From Gautieria morchelliformis (Eukaryota; Basidiomycota; Agaricomycetes; Gomphales; Gomphaceae): a DNA stretch of 64,000 nt. The stretch covers positions 54,740 to 118,739 of the forward strand of contig WHVA01000364.1 of the NCBI GenBank assembly GCA_015179125.1, written 5' to 3'. The translations under genes were made by a program, and so were the position numbers. Below, one piece after another: positions 10,050 through 45,416 of this stretch. The notes below the pieces were generated by a model that saw only the letters and a list, made by a program, of their open reading frames with translations, was not told where the DNA came from and ran no database searches. Position 1 is the stretch's first letter; each line of letters begins with the position of its first letter.

Positions 10050-10248
10050 CAGAAAACAAATGTAGTACAACATACTACAATCAACTGTGCACCTGCGATG
10101 TACCCGCTCAGTTGAACAATGCAATCTAGCAGTTCACCCAACAAAACCCCGGTGCAGCCTAGCGACACCATGGCTGATGCTACCTTGGGCTCAAGGCCCA
10201 AGGAAGTAGAAGACGGCGAAGTCATAGACCTTGCCACACCTGTCCTAG
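10050..10248 (+). pseudogene. Leader and N-terminus of gag A (copy 2), cut by LTR D
   Basis: Matches the start of the window: the shared stretch GGTGCAGCCTAGCGACAC precedes an ATG at 10170 and the reading MADATLGSRPKEVEDGEVID, parallel to residues of copy 1 that begin TADATLNQ. The frame runs into the D LTR at 10249 and is lost. The upstream part (10050-10169) resembles the copy-1 leader more loosely. This copy keeps the initiator ATG that copy 1 has lost. Confidence 0.65.
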
Positions 10249-10886
10249 TGTCAAGATTGGTTTTCAGGCGTTAATATCGTGTATTAGTGAACACAGCGAA
10301 TGCCCGAATAACTTGTGCGAATAAGTATGCCGTTCGGCAAATAGGTGAACCAACAAATGTTCACAAGATAAGAGGACTGCCCGAACGGAGCTCACCCTAT
10401 CTACAGTCATAGCGAAATAGCCCGTGGCACTTGACGATGTAACGTGCAAGGTGTCACGGAAAGGTTGTCTAAGTAGCGACAATCCCTTTGCCAGCGAAGG
10501 TGCTCCTTCAGAGCCCTTCACCAACAGCACAGAAAATAGTTCGAAGGCTAAGGTAACGAAGATGAAGTATGAGAACTCACCAGTGATGCCTAAGTCCTCT
10601 TCTGGTCAAAGATAGAAATCTCCAGGAGAAGGCTCAAGACGATGATCACAGTGAGGTCAAGTTTGCACAAGATGAACGACATATGACAATTGAACTGAGG
10701 AATGTACATGTGAATGCAAACTACTTATATCGAATGCTCGTAAGGTATCAGCGAATAGGAAAGAGGCCGTCGTGAGTCAGGGTTGGATAGGGGTGCGCAG
10801 TCATGATACTAAGTAGATGGAATAAACATACAATAGAGTGAGGGAAGAGTGTGAACATGAAACGACGGAGAGTAAAGGTGGCGAAG
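10249..10886. mobile_element. LTR D, copy 1, truncated by element E
   Basis: Begins TGTCAAGATTGG like the complete D LTRs at 25646 and 51190 and follows them base by base, but stops after GGCGAAG at 10886 where the E LTR begins. The remaining roughly 400-640 bp of a D LTR is absent from the other side of E (18904 onward is Copia-I), so the far end was lost, not simply displaced. Confidence 0.85.
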
Positions 10887-11576
10887 TGTTACGACCGTTC
10901 ATTTCCGACTTCCGACCCTCAGTTCCGCCACTCCTTCGGCCCCTCCAATAGTTCCGCACAACGTTCCGCCCCTCCGACATTTCCGACATTCCGCCCCTTG
11001 TACACTTCCCTTGTTCTTTCGACGCTATTACTCGGACCCACCGGACCCACCTCGCCATCCATCAAAACCATATATCCGGTCACCCTTGTAGTTCGTTGTC
11101 AGATATGTTTTCCCGACCCCTTGTTCTTTGCCATTGTTCTACCCTACCCTGAACACCCCTTGTAGTCCCATTGTTCCCAATTAGTTAGTTCCCACACATT
11201 GTACTCGACTTCCGCTTCCTCCGGAATTTGCTTAGTACAACACCATTACTTGTTGCTCTGCGCTTTGTATAAAACCCCCTCATGTATGTCTGTTATTCTG
11301 CAATCAGATAATCACCTTCGATACTTGATTTCCTTCGCTCCATCTCCTGTTCTTAGCACAGCGAGTCTAGCAAGATCTCAGTCTCTCCGTCTTCCGCTTT
11401 CCGCCCAGTTCCGCCTCAGGTTCCGACCAAACCTTTGGCTCAGTACTTTCCGGCTTCCGACTCATTTCCAAAATACCTAGGACGATAGTTCATTGGGGGC
11501 GCAACCTATAAGTTGAAGCCGCCGTCCTTTCCAGTTCCGACTTAGTGGAAATCTCGATACGTAACAGTATTATCTG
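10887..11576 (+). repeat. 5' LTR of E copy 1
   Basis: 690 bp, TGTTACGACC...CGATACGTAACA, with a TATAAAA box at 11268. It contains 16 occurrences of TTCCG or its complement, roughly twelve times the number expected for a random 5-mer on two strands. Matching LTRs are at 18212, 39335, 56007 and 59178. Confidence 0.92.
11268..11274 (+). promoter_or_regulatory. TATA box of LTR E
   Basis: TATAAAA at 11268-11274 in the middle of the LTR, conserved in the other E LTRs, defines the likely U3/R boundary about 30 bp downstream. Transcripts would read through R-U5 into gag at 11600. Confidence 0.7.
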
Positions 11577-11599
11577 ATTCCCACCCGATAACTATCACT

Positions 11600-13039
11600 A
11601 TGCCTCCTCGTACCACAGCTACTTCAGCTCGAGCAGGAGCTGTCGAAGCTCTCTCTTATTTTGGCAATCTTAGATCCGCAGCACCAAGGCACGCGGAACC
11701 CTCCAGCAGCTCTCGTGCCGACGATGAGCTTTCCGATGCTTTTCCGCAACGTTTCGAAGAAGTTCCCGACGCTAATCCCGACGACAATCCCGACTACGAC
11801 GGGAATTCGACGAGTAGCAGCGGCGAACAAACAGCAGCGTCATACCGACGCCCAGCTCCACCACCACCACCTCCACCAGGACCACCTCCAGGCGGCCCTC
11901 CAGGCGGCCCTCATGGCGGCCCACCCGGCGGTCCCCCAGGCGGTCCTCCCGGCGGTCCTCCACCTCCAATTCCACCTCAGATTCCCGCCAACCCAGTTCC
12001 GCCCGCGCCAGTTCCGGATCTTGCACAAGCCATCGCCATGCTAGCCGGACAACTCCAGCGCCCGGCCCAAGCACCACCACGACCCAAGACTAAGGTCCGC
12101 GAACCAGATCAGTTCGACGGTTCCGATCCCAAGAAGCTCCAGCCATTTCTGGTTCAGCTTCAACTCAATTTCCGTGATCGTCCCGACGCCTTTCCCAACG
12201 ACGAACGAAAGGTCAATTATGCCCTTTCCTATCTCCGAGGCACGGCGCTCGACTATTTCGAACCCGCCCTCATGGATCCGTTCGCTCTCGTCGACTGGGC
12301 CGACGATTACCCCAATTTCATTTCCGAACTCCGCAGCAACTTCGGACCATTTGATATGGAAGCCGATGCGGAAAATGAACTCGATAAGCTTCGCATGAAA
12401 GACACTCATAAGATAGCTAAATATATCGTCACGTTTCAGCAGCTCGCTCCTCGAGTCCAATGGGGAGAAGCCGCACTCCGACGCCAGTTTTACATGGGCT
12501 TGCCATCCCGCATCAAGGATGAAATTGCCCGCGTCGGAAAACCCGCCACCCTTACCGACCTCCGCAACCTCGCCCAATCCATCGATTCGCGCTACTGGGA
12601 AAGACACTCCGAGATTGCTCGTGAAACCTCCGCCCAGAGCAAGAACGACAAGTCTTCCGACAAGAAGTCTGATAAAGACAAGAAGAAGACCAATTCCGGA
12701 AACACCAACTCCGGAAACAACAACAACAACAGTTCCGGATCCAACTCCGGCAACCGGAACAACAACAACACCCCTCGGAACAACCAGGCCTCTGGTTCTA
12801 ACACCAACGCCCGGAAGAGCACCCCGGATCTTTCCGACAAACTTGGGAAAGACGGAAAACTAACCCCTGTAGAACGCCAGCGTCGCATGGACAACAACCT
12901 TTGCCTCTTCTGCGGCAAAGGAGGTCACGTCGCTCGCGACTGCACTCGCGCTTCCGCCTCCGCTGCTAAGGCCAAGGGCCGCGCAGCAAAGACAGAAGAG
13001 AAATCCGAAGCGGTTCCCGCTGCGGATTCAAAAAAATAG
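11600..13039 (+). CDS. Gag of element E (479 aa), intact
   Basis: Structural capsid/nucleocapsid precursor. The ATG at 11600 lies 23 nt after the 5' LTR. N-terminal acidic/serine region, then a Pro/Gly-rich low-complexity block (about residues 90-130) of repeated GGPP units, then a Ty3-type capsid core (about residues 160-330, including FLVQLQLNFRDRP and LNFRDRP..F..DERKVNYALSYL). An Asn/Ser-rich linker follows, then a CCHC zinc knuckle, CLFCGKGGHVARDC. It ends TAG at 13037-13039 immediately after a run of seven A. The homologous gag in E copy 2 has fewer GGPP units. Intact, unlike the pol that follows. Confidence 0.92.
   Translation: MPPRTTATSARAGAVEALSYFGNLRSAAPRHAEPSSSSRADDELSDAFPQRFEEVPDANPDDNPDYDGNSTSSSGEQTAASYRRPAPPPPPPPGPPPGGPPGGPHGGPPGGPPGGPPGGPPPPIPPQIPANPVPPAPVPDLAQAIAMLAGQLQRPAQAPPRPKTKVREPDQFDGSDPKKLQPFLVQLQLNFRDRPDAFPNDERKVNYALSYLRGTALDYFEPALMDPFALVDWADDYPNFISELRSNFGPFDMEADAENELDKLRMKDTHKIAKYIVTFQQLAPRVQWGEAALRRQFYMGLPSRIKDEIARVGKPATLTDLRNLAQSIDSRYWERHSEIARETSAQSKNDKSSDKKSDKDKKKTNSGNTNSGNNNNNSSGSNSGNRNNNNTPRNNQASGSNTNARKSTPDLSDKLGKDGKLTPVERQRRMDNNLCLFCGKGGHVARDCTRASASAAKAKGRAAKTEEKSEAVPAADSKK
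13030..13036 (+). promoter_or_regulatory. Probable -1 frameshift site at the gag stop of E
   Basis: In the gag frame the last codons read TCA AAA AAA TAG, giving the slippery heptamer A-AAA-AAA directly before the stop. The pol frame is -1 relative to gag and is open across this point, continuing into the protease without a stop. Element C has the same arrangement at 37914-37920. Any downstream stimulatory structure was not determined. Confidence 0.7.
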
Positions 13040-16000
13040 TCAGCAGTCCTCCGGCCTCCGCACGAGCTGAGGGCTGTGTTGACCCCATTCGTGCGACAAA
13101 CGAGGTTAAACTCAACGCATCCGCTCTTTCGTCCTCCGACTCTCTCTCTGTTCCGCTCACTTCCGACGCAATTTCCGCACCCCCGTTTACAGCATTGGTC
13201 GACTCCGGTTCGACTCATTGTTTCCTCGATTCCGACTTTGTTTTGAAACATAAACTTCCGACCCGCAACATTCCGACTATTCCGCTCCGCCTTTTCGACG
13301 GGTCTTCCAACACGGGAATTTCCCAAGTTGTGGATCTGTCTATCCGTTTCGCTACTGGGGACAACCATGAAGTTACGTTTTACGTTACTCCGCTAGATGC
13401 TAGCTGTTCCGTTGTACTAGGACACAATTGGCTCACCCGATATAATCCGTCGATTAACTGGGCATTGGGTCAAATACAGTTCCGTACCCCGGATCAACTT
13501 CCGTCTATTCCGACGTCTTCTGCAAAGATGGTTCAGGCCTCTTCTGCAACTCCGCTCGTGGATTCAGTTCCGCACTCCGGTCCCGCTTTAGCACCTCCGC
13601 CCCTTGAAGCTCCTCGAATTGCGCTCGTTTCCGCCACCGCTTTCCGCGTATTGCAACGGCAAGATGATACGACCGTTTTCCAGCTTCACCTCTCCGATTC
13701 GGCTTCAGTCAAGGCTCGTTCCGCCTCGACTTCCGCTCCGGTCGACATGAGCTCAGTTCCGGAAGAATATCGTGACTTCCCGGACGTGTTCAATAAGGCC
13801 AAAGCCGACAAACCTGCTGAACATCACCTTACGACTTGAAGATAGATCTGGAAGAAGGAGCATCTCCGCCCCTTGGACCGATCTACTCTCTTTCGCAAAG
13901 TGAACTCCTAACTCTCCGAGAGTTCGTCGATGAACATCTCAACATGGGCTTTATCCGCCCTTCGCTGTCTCCGCACGGCGCTCCGGTCCTCTTCGTCAAG
14001 AAGAAGGATGGATCTCTCCGCCTCTGCGTCGATTTCCGCGGACTCAATGCCCTCACTAAAAAGGACAAATATCCGCTTCCGCGCATTTCCGACTTACTCG
14101 ACACTCCCCGCAGGGCGAAGATCTACACCAAAATTGACCTCCGGCACGCTTATCACCTTGTCCGCATCCGGGAAGGTGACGAGTGGAAAACCACCTTCCG
14201 CACCCGCTACGGTGCCTTTGAGTGGACTGTCATGCCTTTTGGTCTAACCAATGCTCCCGCCGCTTTTCAGCGATTCATGAACGACGTATTTTCCGACCTC
14301 CTCGACGTATGCGTTCTAGTCTACATTGACGACATCCTCATCTATTCCGACACACCGGAAAAACATCGGAACATGTCCGCGAAGTACTCCGCCGTCTACG
14401 CAAACACCATCTCTACGCAAAAGCAGAGAAATGCGAATGGCATCGCGACACGGTCGAATACCTCGGCTACATCCTCTCTCCAACAGGTCTTACCATGGCA
14501 GAGGACAAGGTCAAGGCAATTCAAGAATGGCCGGAACCCCGACGTGTTAAGGATGTGCAGTCTTTCCTTGGCTTCGCCAACTTTTACCGGCGTTTCATTT
14601 ATAATTTTTCCGACATTACTGTTCCGCTCACGCGTCTCACCAGGAAGGGTGCCCCATGGAATTTCACACCGGAATGCCGTTCCGCATTTGAAGCTCTCAA
14701 ATCGGCCTTCACCACGGCTCCCATACTCGGTTTCTGGATTCCTGATGCCCAACTTGTACTCGAAACCGACGCTTCTGACTACGCGCTAGCCGCCATTCTT
14801 TCCATCATTTCACCCGACGACGGAGAAATTCATCCGATCGCCTTTCATTCCCGCACCTTTTCCGCCCCGGAACTCAACTACGACGTCCACGATAAGGAAC
14901 TACTTGCGATTTTCGAAGCCTTCAAAATCTGGAGACATTACCTCGAAGGTCCAACTTATCCGATCGACGTTGTAACGGATCATAAGAACCTTGAGTATTT
15001 TGCAACCACTAAGATTTTGACTCGCCGTCAAGTCCGCTGGTCTGAATATCTCTCACAGTTCAACATGGTGATCCGTTTCCGCCCCGGAAAGCTCGGAGCA
15101 AAACCCGACGCGCTCACTAGACGTTGGGACGTCTACCCAAAAGAGGGAAGTAGCGACTATGCCAGCGTTAATCCGCACAATTTCCGCCCAGTATTCTCCA
15201 CTGAGCAACTGGCATCGTCCCTGCGTGCCACAGCATTGCAGTTTCCACTACTCCGCGCCTCAATTATTATGGACACCGAGTCTCTCCTTCCGACATCCGT
15301 TCCGCACTCCGTTCCGACCCCACCTCCGCAGCCCACCTCGATGACCGCACCAGTCCTGGATGGTCCCTCGATTCCGACGGATTTCTCCGGTACAAGTCCC
15401 GGATTTACGTTCCGGACACCAACGATCTACGACTTCGCGTGCTCCAGCAAAGCCACGATCATCCGCTCTCAGGACACCAAGGCCAGAACAAGACCCTCGA
15501 CATAATCCACGCACCTATACTTGGCCTCTCCTCCGCACGATGGTCCAAGACTACTGCAAGTCATGCACCACCTGTATGCGAGCCAAGCCTCAACGTCACA
15601 AACCCTACGGCCTCCTGAAGCAACTTCCGATCCCGGAACAACCCTGGAATTCGATATCCATGGATTTCATTGAGAAACTTCCTAAGTCATCCGGCTATGA
15701 TACCATTCTAGTGATCGTTGACCGCCTTACAAAGCAGTCCATCTTTATTCCGACCTACGACACCATAACTTCCGCCCAGCTCGCACAGCTCTTTGTGCTC
15801 CACGTCTTTTCCAAGCACGGAATACCTTCCCATGTCACTTCCGACCGTGGATCCGAATTCGTGTCATCCTTTTTCCGCACCCTCGGAAAGGCTCTCGACT
15901 GAAGCTCCACTTCACTTCCGGTTATCACCCGAAGGAGACGGACAAACGGAACGTACTAATCAGACCCTTGAGCAGTATCTCCACGTCTATTGCAACTACC

Positions 16001-16732
16001 AACATAGCAATTGGTCCGACCTTCTTCCGCTCGCGGAATTTGCCTACAACAACGCGCCTTCCGCTACCACCGGAATTTCACCCTTTTATGCCAACAAGGG
16101 CTACCACCCGAATCTCGCCATCCACCCTGAACGCGACCTCGCCTCTGCAAGAGCCCGAGATTTCGTTGTGGAACTTGACGACCCAGCACCTCCGAGAGAA
16201 CATTACCGCTGCCCAGAAGAGATACCAAACTTCCGCCGATCGGAAACGCCTTCCGCAACCGGCATTCGAGATAGGCGACAAAGCCTTTGTCAAAGCGGAA
16301 AACTTCCGCACCACTCGCCCCTCGAAGAAGCTCTCTGAGAAATACCTCGGTCCTTACGAGATCATCGCTAAGGCCGGCAGTCGTTCTTTCACCCTCAGAC
16401 TTCCTGACAATATGCGCGCAGTACATCCGGTATTCCATGTCTCCATGCTTGAACCCGCAGTTCCGAATACAATTCCGAATCGAGAACAACCTCCGCCTCC
16501 GCCAGTCGTCATCGACGGAGAACCGGAATATGAGATTTCGGAAATTCTCAACTCCAAGCTCGACAGAAGATACCGCTGCCAACTCCAGTACCTAGTCAAG
16601 TGGGCAGGCTATGAAAACACTGACGAAGAGACTTCGTGGATTTCCGCCATGGAACTTGACCACGCCTCTGACCTCGTCTCTGATTTCCACAAGTCATATC
16701 CTGACAAGCCTGGCCCCATTTCCACGCCCTAG
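13037..16732 (+). pseudogene. Pol of element E: PR-RT-RNaseH-IN-chromodomain, frameshifted
   Basis: Reads in the -1 frame from gag. Protease: DSGSTH at about 13201. [21 protein letters not shown], then the catalytic YIDD at 14322-14333. RNase [14 protein letters not shown] near 14765 and TDHKNLEYF near 14980. Integrase: zinc-finger HPLSGH..CKSCTTC, catalytic segments MDFIEKLP (about 15660) and SDRGSEF (about 15840). A chromodomain (about 16520-16690, with QYLVKWAGYENTDEETSW) identifies it as a chromovirus. Single-base losses break the frame near 13825, 14366, 15293, 15505, 15901 and 15930; each is placed by comparison with element C. All catalytic residues I can see are kept, so damage is recent or partly sequencing error. 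Stop at 16730-16732. Confidence 0.88.
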
Positions 16733-16861
16733 TCATTTCCGACCTCATTTCCGACGCCCATTGATTCTTACAGTTCTCAAGTCATTTGTCAAAATCCGAT
16801 TAATTTCCCGTTACTCTATTTTCCGACACTTCAAGAAATTATCTACAAGTCCTTGATACCC

Positions 16862-18089
16862 CTACTCCTCCCCCATTGTCTCCGCCTCGACCTCTTTTTC
16901 CGCTTCCGGCTCTTTTTCCGCCTCCCCTACCTCGACACTCACCAACTCCATTTCCACCCATTCCCTCGTTTCCGCCCCACCGCTCGAACCCGTTTCCGCC
17001 CCAACTCCCTGCTCCCGCAGCCGCGCATCCATTCGGTCCCGGACCAAATCATTCCGCCACCTCATTTCCCGCGTCAACTGCTGTAGCACTGTGGACATAA
17101 CAGTCATCTGGTTCTGAATCGACAGAACCTGATGCTGTTGAACCTCGGCCATATCGATCATGATATCCCGGATTTCGCGTTGCTGTTCCCGCATGGCCCT
17201 CAGCGACCCGGCGATGTCGAGGAGCGGAGAAGCCATGGTGAACCGGTTCAACACCGCCTGTGCCGACTTTCCGGTCACCGGAAAAGATTCCTCGGCCCTC
17301 CCTCCGCTCGGTCCCGGTTCCGCCTTCGGATTTGACTCCTCAACCTTCTGTTTCTTTCGCTCCAGCCTCGAAGCGCACCCGTCCACGACGCAGCGCCTTT
17401 TCCTGTCACGGCACTGGTCGCACGACGTTTCCCGTGGATTGCTCGACCACGTGCAATCCACCCCCTTAGACTCGCATGGGTCACAAGGGGCCTTTTCCTC
17501 ATCGCCGTCCCGAGTTTTCCGCTTCTTAGTCGCGGGATTTTCCGGCCCCAGTTCACGGAGTTCTAACATCCGACTCAACTTCTCCTTTCGAGCCTTCTGG
17601 AATGCGTCCGCTCGAGTTTTCCGTTCCGCCACAAGGTTCACCGGGGTCGCAATCTCCTTTTGCTTCCCTTTTCCTTCCGGAGTCGGTGTACTTTCCGCCG
17701 AACCTTCCGAGTCTGACTCTGACTCGTCCTGAACATGATTCTGGAAGAACTCTAGTTAATTTCAAGATCATTTCCGCCGGACATTTCCGACTCACCTGAT
17801 CCCTTTCCGCTTTCTCCGCAGCCGCTTTCTCTGCAGCAGCCTTGTCCGCAGCAGCCTTCCGTGCCGCGTTCCGTTTCCGTTTCTCTTCACGGACGCGCTC
17901 CTCCTCCTCGCGGCGTTCGCGCTCTTTCCTCTCCTGCTCCTTCCGCTCCTTCTCCCGACGTTCTTTCTCTTTCCGCGCAGCTTCCTCAGCCTCGCGTTTC
18001 TCGGCCATTTCCTTTTGCGCGAGCATATCAGCGAAGTGCTGTTTCATCTCCGCGCTGGACATCTTAGAGAAATCTACTGGGGCACTCAT
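16862..18089 (-). CDS. Antisense Zn2Cys6 / charged-helix protein carried by element E
   Basis: Encoded opposite to gag-pol between pol and the 3' LTR. ATG at 18089, exon 1 18089-17796, intron 17795-17729 (GTGAGT...TTCAG, 67 nt, phase 0), exon 2 17728-16862: 386 residues. Residues about 15-98 are an Arg/Lys/Glu-rich helix typical of long single helices or coiled coils. Residues 180-211 hold cysteines spaced C-X2-C-X6-C-X10-C-X2-C-X6-C, exactly the fungal GAL4-type Zn2Cys6 pattern, next to basic clusters (KKRK, RDRKRR). A helical segment with MREQQREIRDIM and an acidic Glu/Val tail follow. It has its own TATA-like box and converges on pol (130 bp between stop codons). A gene of the same layout lies at 44128-45243 in element C. 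A DNA-binding regulator is the likely role; this is inference from the motif. Confidence 0.8.
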
Positions 18090-18123
18090 GATGGAATAGA
18101 GAGAAGACGCGTTTGTCTTTCAG

Positions 18124-18132
18124 CCTATATTT
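18124..18132 (-). promoter_or_regulatory. TATA-like box of the antisense gene of E
   Basis: On the minus strand AAATATAGG lies about 35-45 bp upstream of the ATG at 18089. A CACGTG palindrome (about 18159-18164) lies further upstream. The whole promoter fits between the ATG and the polypurine tract at 18199. Confidence 0.45.
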
Positions 18133-18198
18133 CAAACTCCGACGCGTTTGTTCACAGGTCACGTGATTCCGACTTGTGGTCTCGCGGGGCTCGACCTT

Positions 18199-18211
18199 AG
18201 AAGGGAGATAC
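18199..18211 (+). other. Polypurine tract of element E
   Basis: AGAAGGGAGATAC immediately before the 3' LTR, the position of the plus-strand primer in LTR retrotransposons. Element C has AAGGAGGGGATAC in the same place. Confidence 0.75.
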
Positions 18212-18903
18212 TGTTACGACCGTTCATTTCCGACTTCCGACCCTCAGTTCCGCCATACATTCCGCCTCTCCAATAGTTCCGCCACACGTTCCGCCCCTCC
18301 GACATTTCCGCCATTCCGCCCCTTGTACATTTCCCTTGTTCTTTCGACTCTATTACTCGGACCCACCGGATCTACCTCGCCATTCATCAAAACCATATAT
18401 CCGGTCACCCTTGTAGTTCGTTGTCAGATATGTTTTCCCACCCCTTGTTCTTTGCCATTGTTCTACCTTACCCTGAACCCCCCTTGTAGTCCCATTGTTC
18501 CCAATTAGTTAGTTCCCACACATTGTACTCGACTTCCGCTTCCTCCGGAATTTGCTTAGTACAACACCATTACTTGTTGCTCTGCGCTTTGTATAAAACC
18601 CCCCTCATGTATGTCTGTTATTCTGCAATCAGATAATCACCTTCGATACTTGATTTCCTTCGCTCCATCTCCTGTTCTTAGCACAGCGAGTCTAGCAAGA
18701 TCTCAGTCTCTCTCTCAGCCTTCCGTCTTCCGCCTTCCGCCTCAGTTCCGACTCAAGTTCCGACCAAACCTCTGGTCCAGTACTTTCCGACTTCCGGCTC
18801 ATTTCCGAAATACCTAGGACGATAGTTCATTGGGGGCGCAACCTATAAGTTGAAGCCGCTGTCCTTTCCAGTTCCGACTTAGTGGAAATCTCGATACGTA
18901 ACA
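18212..18903 (+). repeat. 3' LTR of E copy 1
   Basis: 692 bp, very similar to the 5' LTR but with a small length difference in the TTCCG-rich block near 18720. The next base belongs to a truncated Copia-I integrase, with no target duplication matching the left side. Confidence 0.92.
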
Positions 18904-20462
18904 CCGAATTTTGATGTACGGTCTCTGGGTTCTCGAGGAAGAGGTTTGTGTGCAATCTTGGCCTGAATACACGCATCACAGACAATTCTATCGCCTGTGG
19001 AGCTCAGTTCAATGCCCAATATCATGCCATGGTTTAATAGATGTTGTAGGGACTTCTGTGAGATGTGCCCCATTTTCTGATGAATTTCCATGGCAGACAA
19101 ACACATATGGGCTTGAGCACTTGGTGACTGGAGGTCTAGTCGATATAAACCATTGACCTTCGGTGCTTGCATCAATACCTTTCCAGCAGCGTTAGATATT
19201 GTGCATTTCTGGCCACCGAGTCGAATGTCGTAGCCAGCATCATCGCACCGACCGATTGAGACGAGGGTAGCAGCAATTTTTGGGGCATAATACATATCTT
19301 GCAACGTGACTTCTACTGTTTTATCTCCAACCTTAATGGATAATACAAGCAGTCCTGAACCGAAGGCATCAAAAGTGCCTTTGTTGGCTGCTCGGATAGT
19401 CCTCGGCTGTGAGAATTGACAGTAGTTCCTCAATAAATTTTTGTGAGGAGTCATATGCGATGTCGTTCCGGTGTCGAGTATAACTATAACTCCTGAGGAT
19501 GTGCTCAGATTGAAATTAGAGCACTCGTCAAAATTGGTGAAGGCAAGATGCCCATCACCACTTTCCTCAGAAGAGGACTCTTCTTCGGCAACATTCGCTT
19601 TTGCTTTACCCTTCTTCTTTTTCTTGCCTTTGGCTTTTTTCTTCTGACGTGGTCCTTGACCTTCTTTACCACCTCCTTTAGCCTAGCAATTTTCGATGGA
19701 ATGTCCAGGCTTTCTACAGTTGGTGCATATATGCGCCTTCTGCCCCTTTTGGTCCTTCTTAGTAGATGAACCAATAAACACCTGCTCTTCTTGCGGGAGT
19801 GTTTTCTTCCTGTCATACTGAGCCTTTAGTACCCTAATAATATTATCGGGGACTAATGGCATCCCGCATTCTTCAAGCGAAGTGGTGAGGGCATTCATGA
19901 CTGCCTCATAGGATGGTGGAAGTGACGCAAGGATGATGTCCATGAATTCTTCTTCAGAAACTCTAGCTCCCATCTCATTAAGACGAGCATATAGGTCTTG
20001 GGCCTTGTCCAAATGATCTCTCAGGTCTCCATCCTCAGGACATCTCATACTGCGGAGTTGTCTCTGCAGGCTGGTGAGGACCATCTTGGGCTTTTTGGTC
20101 ATCTCATTGACCAGTGCATCCCAAGTCTCTTTTGCTGTCTTCTGCTTCTGTAGCATCAGGGCTAATGACTCTGACACTGAGACGATGATTTGGGTCTTGG
20201 CTTGTCCTTCTCTAGCAAGGTATCTCTCCAGCTTCTCCTCGGCCTTATCCATCTGAGTTTCCTCAGCTTCTGTAAGAATATGGCCTGGGGGCATAACTGG
20301 AGGATCAGGAGGTCGAGTGACTCTCCCTTCTACATGCTTGAGTAGATTTTTGGACTCGAAATAGCTGATGAGAGTGGCTCGCCACAATGGCCAATTACTT
20401 CCATCAGTAGCAAGCTTCTCAACACCCAATAGCTTCTCAGAAGTGTCTCCGGGGCCCATAAC
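18904..20462 (-). pseudogene. Copia-I gag-protease-integrase, 3' part lost
   Basis: Minus-strand Ty1/copia polyprotein starting near 20459, directly inside its 5' LTR. Gag of the UBN2 type (DGSNWPLWRATLISYFESK, about residues 19-37), then a CCHC knuckle, CTNCRKPGHSIENC. An in-frame TAG follows at once where most relatives have Trp; downstream the same frame stays open. Protease has DTGTTSHM; the integrase zinc motif has HQKMGHIS...CDACIQAK. The frame ends at 18904 inside the start of the integrase core (after RTSKFG), where the E LTR begins; RT and RNase H are missing. The stop could be a suppression site or a mutation; a single copy cannot decide. Confidence 0.88.
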
Positions 20463-21607: not shown

Positions 21608-24600
21608 CTATTCCATGCTGGCTGATATGGCCAGTCTTTGTCTTTTCAGACGGTTCCATATGGAAATGAAGACATGGGTATATACAATTGCATGTGATTG
21701 GGACATGTAGCTCACAGACTTCCGTAACCAGTGCAATCCACTATTGCCACACTCTGCAGCACTCGTGTTGATCTTGGCAAGACGTGGATCCAGACCGGCA
21801 TAAGTGGATAAAAAGGAAGCAGGAGAACATTTGGTGTGTCCCCGGGCATGAAAGTCATCAATGGCGAACAGAGTGTCTGCAAAGAATTCTGGTTCACAGG
21901 TGAGACAGTATGGCCCCAGGGCATAGGCAAAATCATATACAACCAATTTGGGGGCTACAGGCCAGCGGGTGAGAATTGCTGAAAAGACGTCGTTACGGCC
22001 TTCTTCATGGGGGATGCAGTGGAAGCCGTAACAGATGCTGTGAGTACACCAACAGCACATAATACCGCCTGTGAGCCCCTGTGTCTTGTAAGTGGAGTAG
22101 TATTTGGAGCACTGGCCACCACGTTCCTCTGGTGGTTCAGGTCTGGTGTCATGGGGCAGGCGTGGATATGAGGGAAGTATGCGGATGGGTGGTTGGGTGT
22201 AAAAACACCCCGTCTGCATGACCATTCAGGTTTTATCAGGTTCCAAGCTTCAATGTGTCAGAGTGGTCAACGCACCTCCTGCCAATCTGCATCCAAGTTC
22301 CCCCACGCTACATCCGACAGGCTTGAGCCCCCTTCAAGCAAGCAGGCAAGTGTCTGATGGGCTCGGCCCAGGAGCCATTTGATGACATCAATGACAGCCA
22401 GTGGGTATGGGTCATCAAGCATTGCATAATTCTCAACAAGAGAGTAAACACATGGCACCGAAACCAATAGGGTGCACGTGGTTTCATTAGGTGTTGTGAC
22501 GAAGCGTAGGAGGTCATTTTGAGCTCGCCAGTTGACGACCTGGAGGACTGATTCCTCGGCAGACATCTGTGGCAGACATGTGAGCGCCCAGGAAGCAGAC
22601 ACACACACGTGGGAGAGTGTAAGCCCTACCTGCATGAAGAACGCCATAATGGGAGGAACATCTATGAAGTCCGGATAGTCAAGTTCTGAGCCTGTGGACA
22701 CTTCTAGCCGGTTGACACCAAAGCCGGCATGGAACAGGGTTTTAAGTGCAGGACTCAGCTCAACAAGCGCCAATTCGATAAAGGCCACAGAGGGGGCAAG
22801 TTCTTCTTCCAGATGCATACGTTCCAGACCACGCATGCGCACACCTGAGGAGGACAAGTGGGCGGTGGCTGGGGAGGCTTGCATGTGCCCTCGGAGGTCG
22901 ATGAAGTGTCTCAGGGCTGAGCAGACATGCTTGTCTGGGATGCACTGTTGTTGTGAAACATGTCGCATCTCAGTACGTGATATGGTCTCGGGTGGGCTAA
23001 GCGTGGGTGGTGTCAGGGAAGGGAGGAGGTGCTTTTGATTGAAGGCAAGGGTGACGCCATCCCAAATGGTGTCTGCTGGAAAGGGACCCCACAGAGGGCA
23101 GTCGCCTGGGCATGAGTAATCCTGCAGGGACACAAAGGCAAACCAAACACGGCGAAAGGTGTCATCAGACATGAACGGGTGTGGAGACCTGTATGTGGTG
23201 TAATGGCGGGATACGCCTTGGGTCCATGCTGTAAATGGTGTCTCGGACAGGGTGTAGGCACTCGTATACTCATCAAGGAGGTCGTGACTGATGAGGATGC
23301 GGTTGTTGAAGTTGAAGAGGCCATGGTCCTGCGCATCGGGCCCAATATGGTGCCGGGCTTGCGGTGGGCAGGCAGGGCAGGCCTGCACCTCAAGCTCATG
23401 GGTTTGCGCACATGTGAGCATGAAGACAGTGCACGAAATGGATTTGGAACTCATGAGGGGGTCATAAAACTTCCGGGGTGTGTGGTATCCGCAAGATGCT
23501 GACGGCATGAGTGGAATCGTGTGTGGAGGGAATGCAGGAGGGAGCGAGGTCGCATGGGGTGGTGCCTCACCTGGAAGCAACGCCCATCGGGGAATAGCGA
23601 TGGGCAAGTGTGACACTGAGGGTGGCAGCTGAGGTGGACATCTAGGAGACATCGTGCTGTCAATGGTTGCCAAACCATCAGCAGCATCCGGACTCTGACC
23701 CTCGGGCCCCACATCCATGTTGTCACTTGCAGGGCTCACGTCTCCGTCTGGGGGTGGTGACCTAGCGTGCTCAGCTTGCATTTGCAAGCAGGCCTGTAGA
23801 TGCGTACAAGCGGCCATCACATGCACACATGGGTCCCCAGCGTTACGAGAACAATTCCACTGGCCCTCTCCACCATCCAGGCCATGGTACGTGACGAATA
23901 CGTGGTGCTTGATGCCACGCGTTCCACCCGTTCCTACAGAAAACTGGGAGACATGGGGCTCTTGGTGGGTCTCACGCTGAAACAGGACAACTGGTTTAGT
24001 GGCAGCAAATGGGGTGTCAGCCTGGGCCAGAAGTAGGGCAATATAATGACTCACCTTGAGAACCACTGCCTACCGCGGGCGGGGTGGCCAGCGCAGTGTC
24101 CGGATGCGCGATCAGGAATCGTGCATGAACGCATGCACGTTGCCTGCCATACGGACACTGGCAGATGAAAACCTGGTCTGGTCCAATGCGTTGCTCCTGC
24201 AGGTGATACCAAGTGTCCTAAAGGGGGTTTATGTCACTTCGGAGTCAGTGGGAGACCGACCACGAACCTTGCCCGTAAGTCTCAATTCGTCCCACCCTTG
24301 TACCACATAGCCGCGTGCGCTGCAGGGCTTACTGAGGAGCCGATATCTGCACCAGGAGCAGATGGCCACTTGCTGGCCGCAGGTGAGTGAGAGCCTGTAT
24401 GCCACCGAGCATGGCGACCACCCCCGTCTGTCCGGGGCCACTTTTGAGGGGAAGTGAGTATGGGGCCCGGTTCTCGTCGCAGGTGCACTCTCGGTTCTGA
24501 GCCGTGATTGCAGCCAGGGTGCTCAGACAAGTCCACACCGAGTCCGTGCAAGTCAGGACGGCTCAGTCGAACCTCACGCGTTGGTTCGAAGCAGGACATA
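21608..24600 (-). CDS. KDZ-type transposase (cysteine-cluster-associated)
   Basis: Minus strand. Main exon 24066-22276, 62-nt intron 22275-22214 (GTGCGT...GCAG, phase 0), last exon 22213-21608. It reads as the core of fungal KDZ transposases: CPACPPQARHHIGPD, DHGLFNFNNRILISHDLLDEY, TIWDGVTLAFNQKHLLPSL, SAEESVLQVVNW. The last exon has the catalytic part: LTGGIM, then D in VVYDFAYALGPYC, D in AIDDFHARGHTKC, and E in SAAECGNSGL, fitting a DDE nuclease, ending ...IWNRLKRQR. No stop or frameshift was seen in these exons. The Cys-rich N-terminus probably lies in small exons up to about 24600 (CTCDENRAPYS near 24460-24500, further cysteines near 24400), but these joints are unresolved. Possibly still functional. 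Confidence 0.82.
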
Positions 24601-25645: not shown

Positions 25646-26678
25646 TGTCAAGATTGGTTTTTAGGCGTTAATATCGTGTATTAGTGAACACAGCGAATGC
25701 CCGAATAACTTGTGCGAATAAGTATGCCGTTCAGCGAATAAGTGAACCGATGAATGTTCACGAAGCAAAGGGGTTGCCCGAACGGGGCTCGCCCTATCTA
25801 CAGTCGTAGCGAAACAGCTCACAGCACTTGACGACGTAACGTGCAAGATATCGCAGAAGGGCTGTCTTAAGTTTCGATGGTCCCTTCGCTGGCGAAGGTG
25901 CTCCTTTGGAGCCCTTCGCCAACAGCACAGAAAGTAGTTCGAAGGCTAAGGTAACGAAGACGAAGTATGAGAACTCACCAGTGATGCCTAAGTCCTTGGC
26001 TGGTTGAAGATAGAAATCTTCAAGGAGAGGCTCAAGACGATGATCACAGCAAGGTCAAGTTTGCACAAGATGGACGACGTATGATAATTGAACTGGGGAA
26101 TATACATGCGAATGTAAACTACTTATATCGAATGCTCGTAAGGTATCAGCGAATAGGAAAGAGGCCGTCACAAGTCAGGGTTGGATAGGGGTGCGCAGTC
26201 ATGATACTAAGGAGATGGAATAAACATACAATAAAGTGAGGAAAGAATGCGAACATGAAACGACGGAGAGTAAAAGGGGGGGAAGGCACTTATGGACAAA
26301 ACCATGTCTTGGGACCCGCATACATGTTACCCTGCACGGACTCTTCGTTTACTGGGTTGATCCCGCACGACCTATGGAAGGAACGCCCTGCGAACGCACT
26401 TTGGCCATATGAACACCCAATGGGGTTGGATTAAGAAGATGATGGGGCTAATGATGAACCATCATGCCGGGTGATTGGTATCGATCATATTTGATGGCGT
26501 GCCTGCTGGCGAAATGCGCGAGTAGCGAATAGCGGTTCGGAGGATGGAGCGAACAGCGAGTAGGGTAGACGTAGAGGAGGAGTGGTCGGTAGGTGCGGCG
26601 AACTCTGACAAAGATGCTAGGGAGTGACGAGGGGGAACATGGAGGTAGCGCGGTAGGAGAAATAAACCGGTGATGACA
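25646..26678. mobile_element. Solo LTR D, short form (copy 2)
   Basis: 1033 bp, TGTCAAGATT...GATGACA, flanked by the exact 5-bp duplication CCTGT (25641-25645 and 26679-26683). Fourteen GCGAA/TTCGC occurrences, about seven times random expectation. No internal region of family D is present in the window. Confidence 0.92.
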
Positions 26679-30116: not shown

Positions 30117-31192
30117 TGTTGTGATAAACGCAATTATTTCACTCCAAATCATTTATATATAAAGGGAAACTAATAGAAAAAGAAAAGAAAAAAAAATCAA
30201 AAGAAAAATCAAAAGAAACAGAAATTATATTCACGATAGACGTCGGCGCAGACGACGATCACACGAAATTTATGTCATGCTATATTACTCACAGATCGAG
30301 TGATATACAGGATTTCGAGCGTCGACCACGTGCGGTCGATCAGGGACGGCGCGCCTATCGAGTGATGGCATCGGCCATGACGTCGACAGGCGCCAGGCCA
30401 TAGGCACCGAGGGGTGCAGGCACCAAACGCCGCAGAAAATAATAGACTGCGCAGAGATACAGGGTGCTGTGGAGTGACCTGAGAAAGTCACCTGCAGTAT
30501 ACAATATTCAACCAGCTGCCCCACAGGAAAGGCACAGAGACAGTGGCCCCATCTCCAAGCCCAGCATATATGCTGGGCAGGGTAAACTCAGATCCATTTT
30601 CTATTTGAATCCCATGACACGTCTGACTGATTACTATCTTAACAACATGTGGACAGGGGCTTTGTATACTAGGTACAGATCTCTATTCCAAGGCCCAGAC
30701 AATCCTAACACCATCCCCATCACCCCATGACTTTATGACTATAAAATAGTCACTCCGTAGTTACAAAGTAGTTTTTCGACCCATCCATCCAATATCTTGA
30801 ACACTAGTAGTTACTATCAATATAGTATAAATAGCTAGTACAAATGTATGAATGAAATTATCCAGAATTGATTTTTCTGCCTCCTGAAATCACTGTAGTC
30901 TTGTTTGATAGCTACAGAGCTCAGTTCTTGACAGTTTATTCCAAATCTTTGTTGAGAGTCCACTATCATTGTTTACTCTATACTACCTTAAAAGCGAACG
31001 CTTTTGATTTGACTATCCCTTGGGTCGACACTGTTCTTCTGTCGACGCGGTCACGTGACCCTCATTCATCAGTGTTGGACGCGCCTCGAAGGGCTTAGTC
31101 AGCACACAGAAGAGAGGCGAACACAGTGGTTTCAACCACTGAGCAATAGATTTCACTTGTCAAAAGGCACTAATTGATATCTTAATCTAAAA
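30117..31192. mobile_element. Element F, copy 1 (1076 bp, TG...AA ends)
   Basis: Nearly identical to 42185-43255. Starts TGTTGTGATAAAC and ends CTTAATCTAAAA, with the 5-bp duplication ATTTA (30112-30116 and 31193-31197). There are no terminal inverted repeats and no CA end. TATA-like boxes (CTATAAAATA, about 30738; AGTATAAATAG, about 30825) and an A-rich block near 30175-30220 are present. The 5-bp duplication and single promoter-like unit suggest a solo LTR with a non-canonical end; a non-autonomous unit of another class is possible. Confidence 0.8.
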
Positions 31193-31359
31193 ATTTATTC
31201 CCAAGCCTCCACAACACAGTTTGTGCAATACAAACTCTGCCCAGCCTATGCTACCATAGCAACAAGGCTATGTTAGGCTGTGCTGTGCCATAGCTACACT
31301 CACATTGGGTCCACAAGATACAACAATCTCTTGATAGTTTAGCTAAGAATCCCCCATGG

Positions 31360-31547
31360 TCACATGACTATCACATGACCTCAAAAACAGCTCAAAGTCA
31401 CCTGATCATCCACAGTCACCTGACAATCACCTGACCTCAAAGTCACTTGATTATCTACGGTCACCTGACAATCACATGACACAGTCACATGACCTCAATC
31501 CAGCATGAAGTCACATGACTTTCCTTCGTCACATGATAATCACATGA
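31360..31547. promoter_or_regulatory. Array of 12 TCACNTGA motifs in LTR G
   Basis: Twelve copies of TCACATGA, TCACCTGA or TCACTTGA in 188 bp, several flanked by G/A on the left and C/T on the right. All contain a CANNTG core, the target class of bHLH transcription factors. Spacing is irregular (6-20 bp), so it is not a simple tandem repeat. Confidence 0.7.
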
Positions 31548-31620
31548 GCGTGGGAGTTTCTTACATACTCTTAGCTTTACTGTCACAGAGCTGTGACTTT
31601 AACCCAATATAGCAATAGAA

Positions 31621-31756
31621 CCTTCCACAACCTTCCAATAGTTTCCAAACCTTTCCTGAAGCTTCTCTAAGCTTCCACAAGGTTCTTCACAGTAGTAGAA
31701 GCTTCTACAAGGTTCCTAGCAGTAGTTACATAAGCTAGATAGATGCAGTATAAATA
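31621..31756 (+). promoter_or_regulatory. Heat-shock-like motifs and TATA box of LTR G
   Basis: 31621-31735 holds repeated TTCCA/AAGCTTC/GAAGCTTC blocks, including GTAGAAGCTTCTAC, which fit inverted nGAAn units of heat-shock elements. TATAAATA follows at 31749-31756. The order motif array, then GAA/TTC units, then TATA, is that of an inducible promoter. Confidence 0.5.
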
Positions 31757-32413
31757 GCCTGCAGTTTTAGCAGTGAATCAGCCAATACATCATCATCTAC
31801 TATCCACGGACCTCGTGTGACTTGCCAAGCTTGCACAGGTTACTAAGCTGCTAACCCCAGCTAGGGTTATTACACTTACTTAGTGTATTAATTCTCAGTT
31901 AAGTAGTTGCATTTCTACTTAGCCACCCGGACTAACACTCCAGGTGAAATTCTGCAGAGTGAGTCTGACAATCGATTTCCTTATCAATTAGCTCTGCAAT
32001 ACCCGAGACGAACTGATCAGTGACTTTCCTGTTCAGTGACTTTCACAAGTCACTTCTTAAAACCCTAGTCGCTCGTTTATTGCAGTGCATTGACGTTAAT
32101 CGGGTCAGTCCACTTACAAACTCTCCTGTGAAGCCATTCCTATCTTTTTGGAATACTTGGACCCCGATAGTCGTCCTCGAACCTACAGACTTTTAGTTTA
32201 TTGTTCAGTGCTGCTAAGAAACGTATTGCCTTCCATCCGTATTAACTTGGACTAGTTTTTACGCGGATTGCAACCAAGGTACAAATATTAAATTATTTCC
32301 GGAGTTGTGCTGCAGCATTGTTTAATATTCTTTGAGTTTCGTATACGACATGTTCTGATAGACCAAAGTGTTAGCTCTGACACCAAAGTCTTGAAGGGTT
32401 CCAAAACACAACC

Positions 32414-35400
32414 CTTGATGCCACCCATTACGCGAGTCGCTTGATTTCCGACACTGTTCCGAGAGTGGAAGTCAGAAATTGGAGTGGAACTGGCAAGGCA
32501 AACAGAACTGGTGGAAGTTCTCCCAGGAGCGGAATCATTTCTGAAAGTGGAGGCGGGGATGGAATCGGAACCGGAACCGGAGTCGGAAATGGAGTTGGAA
32601 CTGGGTGTGGTGTCGGAACTGGAAATGGAAAACAGGGTGTCCCCTGACATCACCCCCCCTCTAGCATGCTGCGTCCTCGAAGCACGGGACACAAGGGATT
32701 GAAATGCCAGTGAGCGGATTCGGCGAGGGGCACCAGGGTGTGTCCTATAGAACTCGCGGAGTTTGTCTGGAGCGGAGACATCTTGCTCCGGGACCCACAA
32801 ATTCTCCTCATACCCATACCCTTCCCATTTCACAAGGAATTGGAGTCGTCCTCGCACAAACCGGCTGTCCAGGATCCATTCCACCACATAGTGCTCTTCC
32901 CCATCTACAATTTCTGGTGGAGGTTGCGTACGAGCCTTCCGACCTGGAATTGGGTCCTCAAGAGTAGGGAGTAACTTCACCACATTGAAGACAGGGTGGA
33001 GGCGGGACATGGACATCGGAAGTCGGAGGCGGTATGCATTCCGTCCAACCCTCCGCATCACTGTGAAGGGCCCAAGGTAGCGGTGGGCAAGCTTCTGCGA
33101 AGGGCGCGTGGTGCGGATGTCACTTGCATCTAGATACACCTTGTCTCCAACTTGGTACTCTGGGGCAGGAACCCGGCATTGGTTGTAGTACCTTGCCATG
33201 TCATCCTTGGCCTTCGCAAGGGCCGACTTGGCTTCCGAAAGGGTGGAGTCCATGCGGTCTCGGAACTCATTGACTGTCTCGAGTCAGGACTCTGCCTGGC
33301 GTGGCTCGAAGCCCATCCGCGGGTGTCTTCTGGAGTCAAGCATGAAGGGAGTCTGTTGTGTGGCGGAATGTACATGGTTGTTGTATTGGAATTCCGCCAG
33401 TGGAAGTAACTCATCCCAGTCATCCTGCCTCTCATTGACAAAGAGGTGGAGATATTGCTCCAACTCCTGATTGACCTGTTCCGTCTGTCCGTCGCCCTGC
33501 GGATGGTATGCTGTGGTGGTAGCCAGCTTTATGCCAAGCAGGCAGTAGAGTTCCCGAGTCAGTTCCGCGACAAACTGCGGACCTCGGTCGGAAACGACTT
33601 GCTTCGGGAGCCCATGCAACTTCCAGACATGTGCAAGGAACAGGCGGGCCGCTCCGAGGGCTGTGATCGTCGTGTGCGTCGGAAGGAAGTGGGACACCTT
33701 GCTTACCGAGTCCATGATGTTCACGATCGCATCGTAGCCATGAGACTCTGGGAGTTCAACGATGAAGTCGACACTGATGGTGTCCCAGTGGGATTCTGGA
33801 ATCGGGAGTGGAACAAGTTCTCCGACGGGTGGATATCGTTGCGCTTTGGTTCGGAGACAAAGGTCACATGTCTTCACGTACTGTCCAATGTAGCGGGACA
33901 TCTGAGGCCACCAGTAATTCCGAGCCACTAACTCCAGCGTCTTCCACCTGCCAGCATGCCCAGCGACCCATGTGTCATGGTGCTGGGACACGATGCGGCG
34001 GTGGAGGTCTGCCCCACTTGGAAGATAGACCTTGCCTCTGAAGTGGAGCAGCCCATCATGTTCCGACCATTCCGCTGCCCGTACAGACCGTGAGTGCCCT
34101 TTCCGAAGTTCCTCCACCGCCTTCACCACCGACTCCTCCTTCTCTCCATTCCGGCACTGCCTCCGGATGTCCCGGAGCATTTCCGCTTCCGCCCCAACTG
34201 CAGTCACTCCTTCGAGGGCGCGGATTGCAAAGAGACTTGGGCGGAGTAGTGTCATATCAGCATTGTCTCCACTTCTGCTTCCATGATCCGCACGGCGGGA
34301 TAGGGCATCGGGCTTGCCCATGGTGCGGCCGGGGCGGTGGTGGAGCATGAAGTCGAACCGGGACAGGTGTAGGGACCACCGTGCTTGTCGTCGGTTCAAC
34401 TTCTTAGACGTGCGGAAGTACTCAAGGTTCTTGTGATCTGTCCAGATCTCAAATGGGCATAGAGCACCCTCGAGGAAGTGTTGCCACTCCTCCAGTGCTC
34501 GGATGATTGCCAGCATCTCCTTGTCGTGGATCTCATAGTTCCGCTCGACCGGACTGAGGCTCTTAGAGAAGAAGGCAATCGGATGCCACCCCCACCATCT
34601 TCCGATGACTGTTGCGACAAGACCGCTCCGGTAGCTGTGTCGGAAGAATCCGCCTCGACTCGGTAAGGGTGAGAGTCGTCGGGAAAGATCAGGACCGGGG
34701 CGGAAGTGATCAGCTCTTTGAGTTTGTTGAAGGAGCCTGTTCCAGCTCTCCCCACCGCCACCCAACCTCCTTCTTGGTGAGGTCGAAGAGGGCATGGGCA
34801 TGGCAGGAGAAGTCCTTGATGAACTGCTGGTAGAAATTGACAAACCCAATGAAGGACTGGACCTCCTTGTTCCGCAGCACAGGCCAATCCGATACACCAG
34901 AAACTTTGACCGGGTCCATTTCCACCTTTCCCTCCAACACAATCACCCCAAGATACTCTATCCGCGTCCGCTCAAATTCGCACTTTTCCGGCTTGAGACA
35001 CAGGTTGTACTCCCGGAGTCGTTCCAGCACTCTCCGCACGACTTCCCGATGTTCGGACATTGTTTTTGTGAAGATGAGGATGTCATTGAGGTAGACACAG
35101 ACAACCCCTTCTGCTATCATGTCATGGAAGATGTCATTCATCATCGTCTGGAACGTGGCGGGACTGTTGGTGAGGCCAAAGAACATGACCTGTGGCTCAA
35201 AGAGTCCTCGGTTGGTGCAGAATGCGGCCTTCGACTCGTCCCCTCCCGGATCCGAACATTATTGAAGCCCCAGCGGACATCCAGCTTAGTGAAGTACCTT
35301 GCCCCACGGAGTTGTGTGATCAGTTTGGAAATGAGTGGAATGCGGTACTGGTTCTTGATCGTGATCGCATTCAAGGCCCGGTAATCCTGCACAAGTCTGA

Positions 35401-36086
35401 GCGAGCCGTCCTTCTTCTTGATGAAGAACACCGGAGACGCCATGGGTGACTTGGAGGGGCGGATCCTCCCTGTACGGAGGTTTTCTGCAAGGAATGCATC
35501 GAGCTCTACCTGCTCCTTGGGTGACAGTGGGTAGACCTTGCAGTTGGTGGGCTTTGACCCAGGCTCCAACTCGATGGCATGGTCCCACAGCTTTCATGGA
35601 GGCAGGGCATCAAATGACTCCTTGGAAAAGACACCCTCGAACTCCTGCAGGTACTCCAGAATGTCCACCTCCGCTTTATCATGCTTCTTGGAGGCTTCAG
35701 CAAGGCGTTGTGAAATGTTTCCGGTGGCGCGGATGTGTTCCGCTTCCAGTGGAAGGTTTACATACAGCAAGCGCTCCCCTCTGCCAGAGTCTCTTCCGGG
35801 CTGAGTCAGATGACGTCTGAGTCGGAATCGGAATTGGAATTGGAAGTGGGATCCGGTTCAAATTCCGCTTCCGAGTCTTCTTCTGCAAGCAGTGGATGGG
35901 GGCCAGAACGACATGTCCTTATGAGCCTTTCGGTCTTCCGCTGCTCCTGGCGCTCCTTCCACACTTCCGACCCGCACATGTGACACTTGGCTGGGCATCA
36001 ACTCATCAGTACCTTCCGAGTCTGCCAATTGATCTCCGGGTTGTGCTCCTGAAGCCAGGTAAACCCGAGGATGATGTCTTGCTTCC
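32414..36086 (-). pseudogene. Pol of element B, copy 1 (RT-RNaseH-IN-chromodomain), decayed
   Basis: Minus strand, from the protease side (36086) to a low-complexity Ser/Asp tail (about 32440-32660). [21 protein letters not shown] (about 35440-35385); the catalytic box reads YLND (N at 35085-35087) instead of YLDD, which should abolish polymerase activity. RNase [10 protein letters not shown] (about 34420). Integrase: SVDFIVELP (about 33760), SDRGPQF (about 33580), then YHPQGDGQTEQ. Chromodomain with LQFLVKWEGYGYEENLW (about 32850-32790). Damage: frameshift near 35230, a break near 34700, TGA at 33284-33286. Interrupted at 36086 by element C; the protease continues at 45985. Confidence 0.88.
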
Positions 36087-36649: not shown

Positions 36650-36693
36650 GTATTTTCAGACTGCTTACACCCTACGTATCCCTCTTTTTCACT

Positions 36694-41733: not shown

Positions 41734-42184
41734 CCTTTGTCAAGGAGTATTGCAAGACATGTACCACTTGCATGTGAAGCAAGCCGCAACGTCACAAGCC
41801 CTATGGTCTTCTCAAACAACTCCCCGTTCCCGAGAAGCCATGGAATTCCATCTCTATGGATTTCATTGAGCAGCTTCCCCCTTCATCCAAGTTCACCTCC
41901 ATCCTAGTGATTGTTGACCGCTTCACTAAGCAGGTTATCTTCATTCCAACCACAGACAAGATAACCTTGCAAGAGCTCGCTCATCTCTTCGTCCTTCATG
42001 TCTTTTCCAAGCATGGAGTCCCCTCGCACGTCACCTCGGACAGGGGTTCTGAGTTCGTCTCGCACTTCTGGCGTTCCCTAGGGAAAGCCTTGGACATGCG
42101 GTTGCATTTCACCTCGGGATATCATCCCGAGGGTGACCGTCAAACCGAGCGTGCTAACCAGACCTTGGAACAGTACCTCAGGAT

Positions 42185-45403: not shown

Positions 45404-45416
45404 AAGGAGGGGATAC
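45404..45416 (+). other. Polypurine tract of element C
   Basis: AAGGAGGGGATAC directly before the 3' LTR at 45417, matching the position and pattern of the tract in element E. Confidence 0.75.

Follow-up and report, generated by a model that had tools for sequence, protein, structure and literature searches.

This 64,000-nt stretch of a Gautieria morchelliformis contig (the window) contains a chromodomain Ty3 retrotransposon, element E, with a reading frame that runs against the sense genes between pol and the 3' LTR. Its presence there raises two questions: (i) whether the frame is a true gene of the element and (ii) what its product might recognise. The parts of the element are as follows.

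10887-18903, plus strand: element E, a chromodomain Ty3 element delimited by its LTRs and domain hits
10887-11566, plus strand: 5' LTR, 680 nt, TGTTACG...CGTAACA, with TTCCG 15 times on the plus strand and once on the minus strand
11600-13039, plus strand: gag, with Ty3_capsid, Retrotrans_gag and a CCHC knuckle (Pfam scan)
13195-16732, plus strand: pol, with domain hits to protease, RT, RNase H, integrase, SH3_Tf2-1 and chromodomain; the frame is broken in the window copy
16862-17740, minus strand: antisense exon 2, encoding a linker, the cysteine cluster, basic stretches, a long helix and an acidic tail
17018-17263, minus strand: the C-terminal helix of the antisense protein
17390-17485, minus strand: six-cysteine cluster, CDPC-X6-C-X10-CDQC-X6-C
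17741-17795, minus strand: antisense intron, best model 55 nt, GTGAGT...TCTTCCAG, phase 0
17796-18089, minus strand: antisense exon 1, start codon and charged N-terminal stretch, 98 codons
18107-18166, minus strand: upstream region and candidate promoter, with a TCACGTGA E-box at 18159-18166 and two ACGCGTC boxes
18201-18208, plus strand: putative polypurine tract, assigned from its sequence and its position before the 3' LTR
18212-18903, plus strand: 3' LTR, 692 nt, with eight TTCCG inside 18228-18318, next to the candidate antisense promoter region

Element E has the composition of a chromovirus: matches to Ty3_capsid, RVT_1, RT_RNaseH and Chromo (30.8 bits, cut-off 25.1) between LTRs, with an rve match that falls under its cut-off in the broken window copy. 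The sense coding region ends with the chromodomain ORF, whose stop is at 16732. The two LTRs are 96% identical, yet the flanks (10882-10886 and 18904-18908) show no matching target-site duplication, which suggests recombination between elements.

Addressing the first question, we found that the frame given in a preliminary description of this DNA, a spliced minus-strand gene from an ATG at 18089 to a stop at 16862, is indeed open and lies between the pol stop and the 3' LTR. Copies were collected by a genome search in which the best 40 of 438 candidates were scored, giving 40 places; 39 were taken and one contig-end fragment was omitted. The concern voiced beforehand, that other full-length copies might lack an open antisense ORF, did not materialise. 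An uninterrupted spliced frame is found in 27 of the 39, in some with an intron length changed by 1 nt, and the remaining 12 carry frameshifts, stops or truncation; among these, one copy that could be read through only by assuming an implausible intron of 105 nt was scored as broken. A 2-kb pol stretch is open less often, in 10 of 33 E copies, but it differs in length from the antisense frame and no excess is claimed. Exonic indels comprise 25 distinct events, only six of them multiples of three, and 18 of the other 19 occur in a single copy, which fits decay after insertion. Two events are common to more than one copy, a 3-nt deletion (nine copies) and a 1-nt deletion (two copies). None of the six intron indel events is a multiple of three.

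The claim of a canonical intron stands as to splicing, with the donor GTGAGT present in 39 of 39 copies, but its length has to be revised. The acceptor CAG of the 67-nt intron first proposed (ending at 17729) is replaced by TCAT or TCGT in five of six divergent copies (L041, L042, L044, L045 and L047). An acceptor 12 nt upstream is retained; in the four divergent copies whose frame is intact it gives introns of 54-56 nt. We therefore favour the 55-nt intron (17795-17741), which gives a protein of 390 aa, and reject the 67-nt intron as the main form. Upstream of the gene, the TCACGTGA E-box occurs in 37 of 39 copies (the other two are cut off or interrupted there); both ACGCGTC boxes are present in 29 copies, one in six and neither in four. 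The TATA-like AATATAGG that had been put forward as the gene's own box exists but is variable, being found in 23 of 39 copies.

Selection on the frame was assessed by Nei-Gojobori counts in subfamilies A (32 copies) and B (6 copies). For the antisense gene dN/dS is 0.138 within A, 0.125 between A and B and 0.144 within B. The five other frames of the region give 0.23-3.6, leaving the antisense frame lowest of the six, and E pol stretches (0.20-0.33) also lie above it. With the 55-nt intron the values are 0.142 within A (codon bootstrap 0.090-0.222) and 0.134 between A and B (0.097-0.183); bootstrap intervals here and below are approximate, because pairs of copies are not independent. Exon 1 gives 0.094 (A) and 0.109 (A versus B), and constraint is strongest in the C-terminal helix, at 0.046 within A and 0.072 between A and B. 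A sense ORF at 17160-17732 is open in 27 of 39 copies; we rejected it as a real gene, its dN/dS being 0.24 and 0.20 against 0.125 and 0.118 for the antisense frame there.

Divergence at neutral sites is higher in the antisense gene and its spacer (16733-18089) than in pol or the LTR. Between A and B, pS is 0.21 in the antisense gene versus 0.07-0.10 in pol; divergence in the antisense intron is 0.23. Exchange of the antisense module between lineages is possible, and region-wise distances in 13 of the 38 other copies fit it.

A second element in the window, element C, has a gene in the corresponding position.

36087-45979: element C, with target-site duplication CTTCC, interrupted by an E-type LTR near 39335
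36087-36649, plus strand: 5' LTR, with CCTCG nine times on the plus strand and never on the minus strand
44128-44990, minus strand: antisense exon 2; the window copy loses the frame after the cluster
44769-44879, minus strand: cysteine cluster, C-X2-C-X6-C-X15-C-X2-C-X6-C
44991-45036, minus strand: antisense intron, 46 nt, phase 0
45037-45243, minus strand: antisense exon 1, 69 codons
45417-45979, plus strand: 3' LTR, with CCTCG ten times on the plus strand and never on the minus strand

Element C has domain matches to RT, RNase H and rve; the chromodomain match itself is that of E. The two had been described as separate families with clearly diverged gag-pol. Two families they are, but with 66% identity in RNase H (299 aa) and 58% in RT (187 aa) they are sister families. 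The proposed counterpart gene holds for place, strand and the phase-0 intron of 46 nt, with the qualification that the window copy is frameshifted after the cluster. Scoring the best 40 of 355 candidates gave 41 matches, of which 16 stretches were taken; with the window's own this makes 17 copies. The intron has a GTGAGT donor and an AG acceptor in 17 of 17, with lengths of 46-48 nt. Only two of the 17 frames are open end to end, which marks the C copies as more decayed, and a third stays open as far as its extracted stretch reaches. Even so, dN/dS of the C antisense frame is 0.238 (0.189-0.304), again the lowest of six frames (the others 0.37-1.73), and its strongest constraint, 0.094, also lies in a helix-like C-terminal part.

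A spliced antisense accessory gene under selection, common to two related families, is thus well supported by these comparisons of copies. The selected gene of the preliminary description stands, and the dN/dS near 1 that would speak against it did not occur: values in both families are far below 1. That the frame is a chance antisense ORF, or a functionless relic of a captured host gene, is scarcely credible given that purifying selection is frame-specific and that both families conserve the cysteines and the splice signals; what speaks for it is that relatives outside Gautieria were not found, in searches of limited reach. These covered 5.8 billion protein sequences with the full E protein, E exon 2 and the C protein as queries, and for each the roughly 8000 candidates with the most shared words were scored. 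Full E and C each returned one match, both of them Gautieria morchelliformis gene models that share a one-exon stretch only, and E exon 2 had no match among the approximately 8000 candidates scored. The absence of relatives elsewhere is weak evidence, because low-complexity words probably filled the candidate lists. The Gautieria morchelliformis models in the database fuse the E or C antisense stretch to unrelated coding sequence and are seemingly mis-annotated.

What kind of protein is encoded? When all six frames of the window were scanned for C-X2-C-X6-C...C-X2-C-X6-C clusters, two places were found, the antisense genes of E and C. The exact C-X2-C-X6-C-X10-C-X2-C-X6-C pattern reported for E was borne out: read in a reference frame, all six cysteines are invariant in 39 of 39 E copies, as are those of C in 17 of 17. 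For the cluster dN/dS is 0.33 within A, 0.10 between A and B and 0.53 in C, values based on few changes. The Zn2Cys6 spacing is C-X2-C-X6-C-X5-12-C-X2-C-X6-8-C. The X10 spacer of E falls within this range and the X15 of C outside it, so the statement that C has the same cysteine layout was wrong. The window E cluster scores 14.9-15.4 bits against Pfam Zn_clus (PF00172), under the gathering cut-off of 21 bits. All five E rows match this family, with E-values of 0.014 or worse, and three C rows gave no match. The Zn2Cys6 label therefore survives in part, for the invariant cysteines and the spacing of E, and Zn2Cys6 identity of the antisense protein is only partly supported. Elsewhere in the window, a 599-aa ORF (22267-24066, minus strand) matches, at 148.7 bits, the Pfam model of the CxC4 cysteine cluster, which is associated with KDZ transposases.

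In overall layout the E protein has a charged N-terminus, the cluster, basic stretches, a helix and an acidic tail, and the C protein a different N-terminus, the cluster, a basic stretch, a helix-like C-terminal part and an acidic tail. A single-sequence model of E exon 2 has low confidence (pLDDT 62), with a long helix predicted at residues 157-243 (block means up to 96). Within the cluster the model also places, at low confidence, a short helix on residues 89-92, at the first CxxC, and another across the cluster's second half (105-136); in these and in its cysteine spacing, E resembles fungal Zn2Cys6 regulators. Canonical Zn2Cys6 domains carry basic residues in the first half of the cluster, whereas those of E are in the second (CRDRKRRC); the score below the Pfam cut-off and the X15 spacer of C are further differences. 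A Foldseek search with the model gave one match, which is meaningless, and a PDB sequence search gave none. Alignment of the E protein with the C protein is confined to the cluster and weak even there (hhalign E 0.065, probability 0.9%). With 500 shuffles, P is 0.27 for whole proteins, 0.73 for the N-terminal part, 0.02 for the C-terminal part and 0.01 for the cluster, and homology beyond the cluster was not established. Given the similarity of RNase H and RT, this implies fast divergence of the antisense proteins between families despite constraint within them.

Potentially addressing the second question, each family is filled with its own short word. The sense strand of E contains 120 TTCCG in 8 kb, or 15 per kb, versus 1.2 per kb elsewhere in the window, and C contains 73 CCTCG (7.9 per kb versus 0.9). 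In Markov simulations (200 for each element) the maximum for any pentamer was 61 in E and 47 in C, under both observed counts. The words are strongly oriented in the LTRs, at 33:2 for TTCCG in E and 19:0 for CCTCG in C. LTR counts alone are weak evidence, because only the E 3' LTR exceeds its simulations (18 versus a maximum of 16; E 5' LTR 15 versus 17, C 10 versus 15).

Coding parts of E were compared with 1000 codon-preserving shuffles. TTCCG exceeds all of them in gag (12 versus a mean of 3.1), RT (9 versus 2.2), RNase H (11 versus 3.6) and integrase/chromodomain (8 versus 2.3). In the antisense gene, CGGAA, which has the same genomic orientation, does so too (21 versus 9.9). The opposite orientation, CGGAA, likewise surpasses every shuffle in E gag (9, maximum 8) and integrase/chromodomain (6, maximum 5). 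Enrichment of CCTCG in C is weaker, being seen in one of five coding stretches (gag, 6 versus 1.9) with the word outside the top eight in the other four. Noncoding TTCCG changes more slowly than random placements, at 0.0087 versus 0.0202 in A (P 0.039) and 0.031 versus 0.069 in B (P 0.019); against CG-containing words P is 0.0625 (A) and 0.0035 (B). The conservation is modest, ranking 5th and 3rd of 18 pentamers. The antisense gene shows it as well (P 0.033 and 0.020), and in pol none was detected (P 0.44 and 0.27).

The words sit mainly on the sense strand; they occur in noncoding as well as coding DNA and, within pol stretches, in each of the three frames, a distribution that would also suit signals in the sense RNA. 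The antisense protein would then act on RNA or in the particle, as a chaperone or in packaging or nuclear export. We consider this quite improbable, since the six-cysteine spacing of E is that of DNA-binding clusters and gag already has a CCHC knuckle. Moreover, same-orientation sites are also known for a DNA-binding protein, VANC (PMC5735166).

Words of this kind are found beyond E and C. A more distant chromovirus, element D (RNase H 39-50% identical), is present twice.

32288-36085, minus strand: element D, interrupted by C at 36087
61100-64000, plus strand: a further copy of element D

Against 300 codon shuffles, CGGAA reaches z 4.3-6.8 in four stretches of D, and TTCCG is enriched in two of them. 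A six-frame scan found no six-cysteine cluster beside D within the window. A search for further chromovirus families, scoring the best 150 of 3407 candidates, gave three loci, all of one D-like type; these have no cluster in the 2.4-2.5 kb from the SH3 domain, and the loci are possibly interrupted. In control genes (two copia stretches and one KDZ-type) the best word, a different one each time, reaches z 3.5-4.7, so that one word-rich block proves little. An LTR-like stretch at 31040-31760 is dense in a TCACATGA/TCACCTGA word and contains repeated TCACAT. A five-copy repeat (10248-10770, 25646-26170, 46090-46610, 51190-51710 and 54422-54944) contains repeated GCGAAT, counted in two copies, and some of its copies adjoin copia-type ORFs. 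Since other LTRs in the window carry repeated words of their own, word arrays are not tied to the antisense gene.

The words may accordingly be unrelated to the antisense protein: they would be sites for a host factor, or would arise incidentally from mutation or codon bias, and the protein would serve some other role. The enrichment in D without such a gene found beside it, and the words of the other LTRs, favour this explanation, and the excess over codon shuffling and the different words of sister families with diverged proteins count against it. We regard it as doubtful, though a real contender. With D sharing the word of E, and words in controls and other LTRs, a link between word and protein is a hypothesis built on two families.

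The reading we prefer, with a probability of roughly 0.5, is that the antisense gene encodes a self-recognising regulator, a DNA-binding protein that recognises the word of its own family and thereby activates or de-silences the element. The gene would probably have a promoter of its own, just inside the 3' LTR, and its transcript would be spliced. Its intron is antisense to the genomic RNA, so that splicing of that RNA cannot remove it and the intron survives retrotransposition. The product would be a nuclear protein, with a charged N-terminus (in E), a zinc-cluster-like DNA-binding domain, basic stretches and an acidic tail, and the long helix may serve dimerisation, giving a DNA-binding dimer. 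TTCCG in E and CCTCG in C would be the candidate binding sites, with the LTR array as the main target, where binding would activate the element or prevent its silencing. Binding may also autoregulate the antisense gene, whose candidate promoter region adjoins the densest array. Control of the element by this protein, put forward as an inference from the start, we still infer, and the family-specific arrays make it more concrete.

Activation, anti-silencing and repression are all compatible with the sequence, and the protein could instead be a repressor or copy-number brake that binds the LTR, lowers sense expression and limits damage to the host. The position of the TTCCG array beside the candidate antisense promoter region agrees with a brake, as does an anatomy like that of the retroviral protein HBZ (antisense, spliced, at the 3' end of the element, with a nuclear-type domain). 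HBZ is, however, a bZIP protein and no bZIP family match was found in the antisense proteins, and we think a brake unlikely. Returning to activation or de-silencing, a more specific form would have the protein and its one-orientation word co-diverge between the sisters (TTCCGMC in E, ACCTCG in C), each family de-silencing or activating only its own copies, with D perhaps a cheater that has the word of E without the gene. We offer this tentatively, as a somewhat unlikely elaboration.

Antisense accessory genes of LTR elements are already known in plants and in some retroviruses; the present case is fungal, in a chromovirus, with a different domain and with family words. No such gene in a fungal chromovirus was found among the titles and abstract openings returned by searches of the open-licence PMC literature. 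The nearest known kind is the Retand lineage of plant Ty3 elements, in which the interval from pol to the 3' LTR contains antisense ORFs with a TRP28 domain (PF04195). Maize Grande and rice RIRE2 are also named as such elements, and probable DNA binding and a regulatory role have been suggested for these ORFs (PMC11963269). E and C share with Retand the antisense position between pol and 3' LTR, the probable DNA binding and the lineage-wide presence. Unlike Retand, which is a plant, non-chromovirus lineage with TRP28, they are fungal chromoviruses with a six-cysteine cluster and family words, and their antisense proteins gave no Pfam match to PF04195. Their antisense genes contain an intron, a feature that, like dN/dS, goes unmentioned for Retand in the passages of that source consulted (PMC11963269).

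The function of the plant genes is still open, and the fungal case adds strong coding constraint and a recognisable domain. With that domain, and with one candidate DNA target for E and another for C, binding is testable at once.

HBZ of HTLV-1 is a spliced bZIP protein that opposes sense transcription. The E and C proteins would likewise be antisense-encoded, putative nuclear regulators of an LTR element, but they lack a bZIP match, and HBZ belongs to a vertebrate retrovirus and has a different origin. The same source mentions HBZ as a nuclear protein encoded in antisense (PMC11963269).

A parallel for the words comes from VANDALs. These are Mutator-like DNA transposons. In Arabidopsis, their VANC proteins act as sequence-specific anti-silencing factors with demonstrated binding, and related VANC proteins act on different elements (PMC5735166, PMC10398659). 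The VANC motif is short, dense, in one orientation and variable between related elements, with sites mainly in noncoding DNA (PMC5735166). The one-orientation word arrays of E and C resemble VANC targets, each being a dense, family-specific array paired with a protein encoded by the element, but D shares the word of E. Unlike VANDALs, E and C are LTR retrotransposons, their words fill coding parts too, and binding is proposed here from sequence alone. If the proposal is true, self-recognising regulation of the VANC type exists in retrotransposons too, and fungal genomes are a place to study the joint evolution of a protein and its word.
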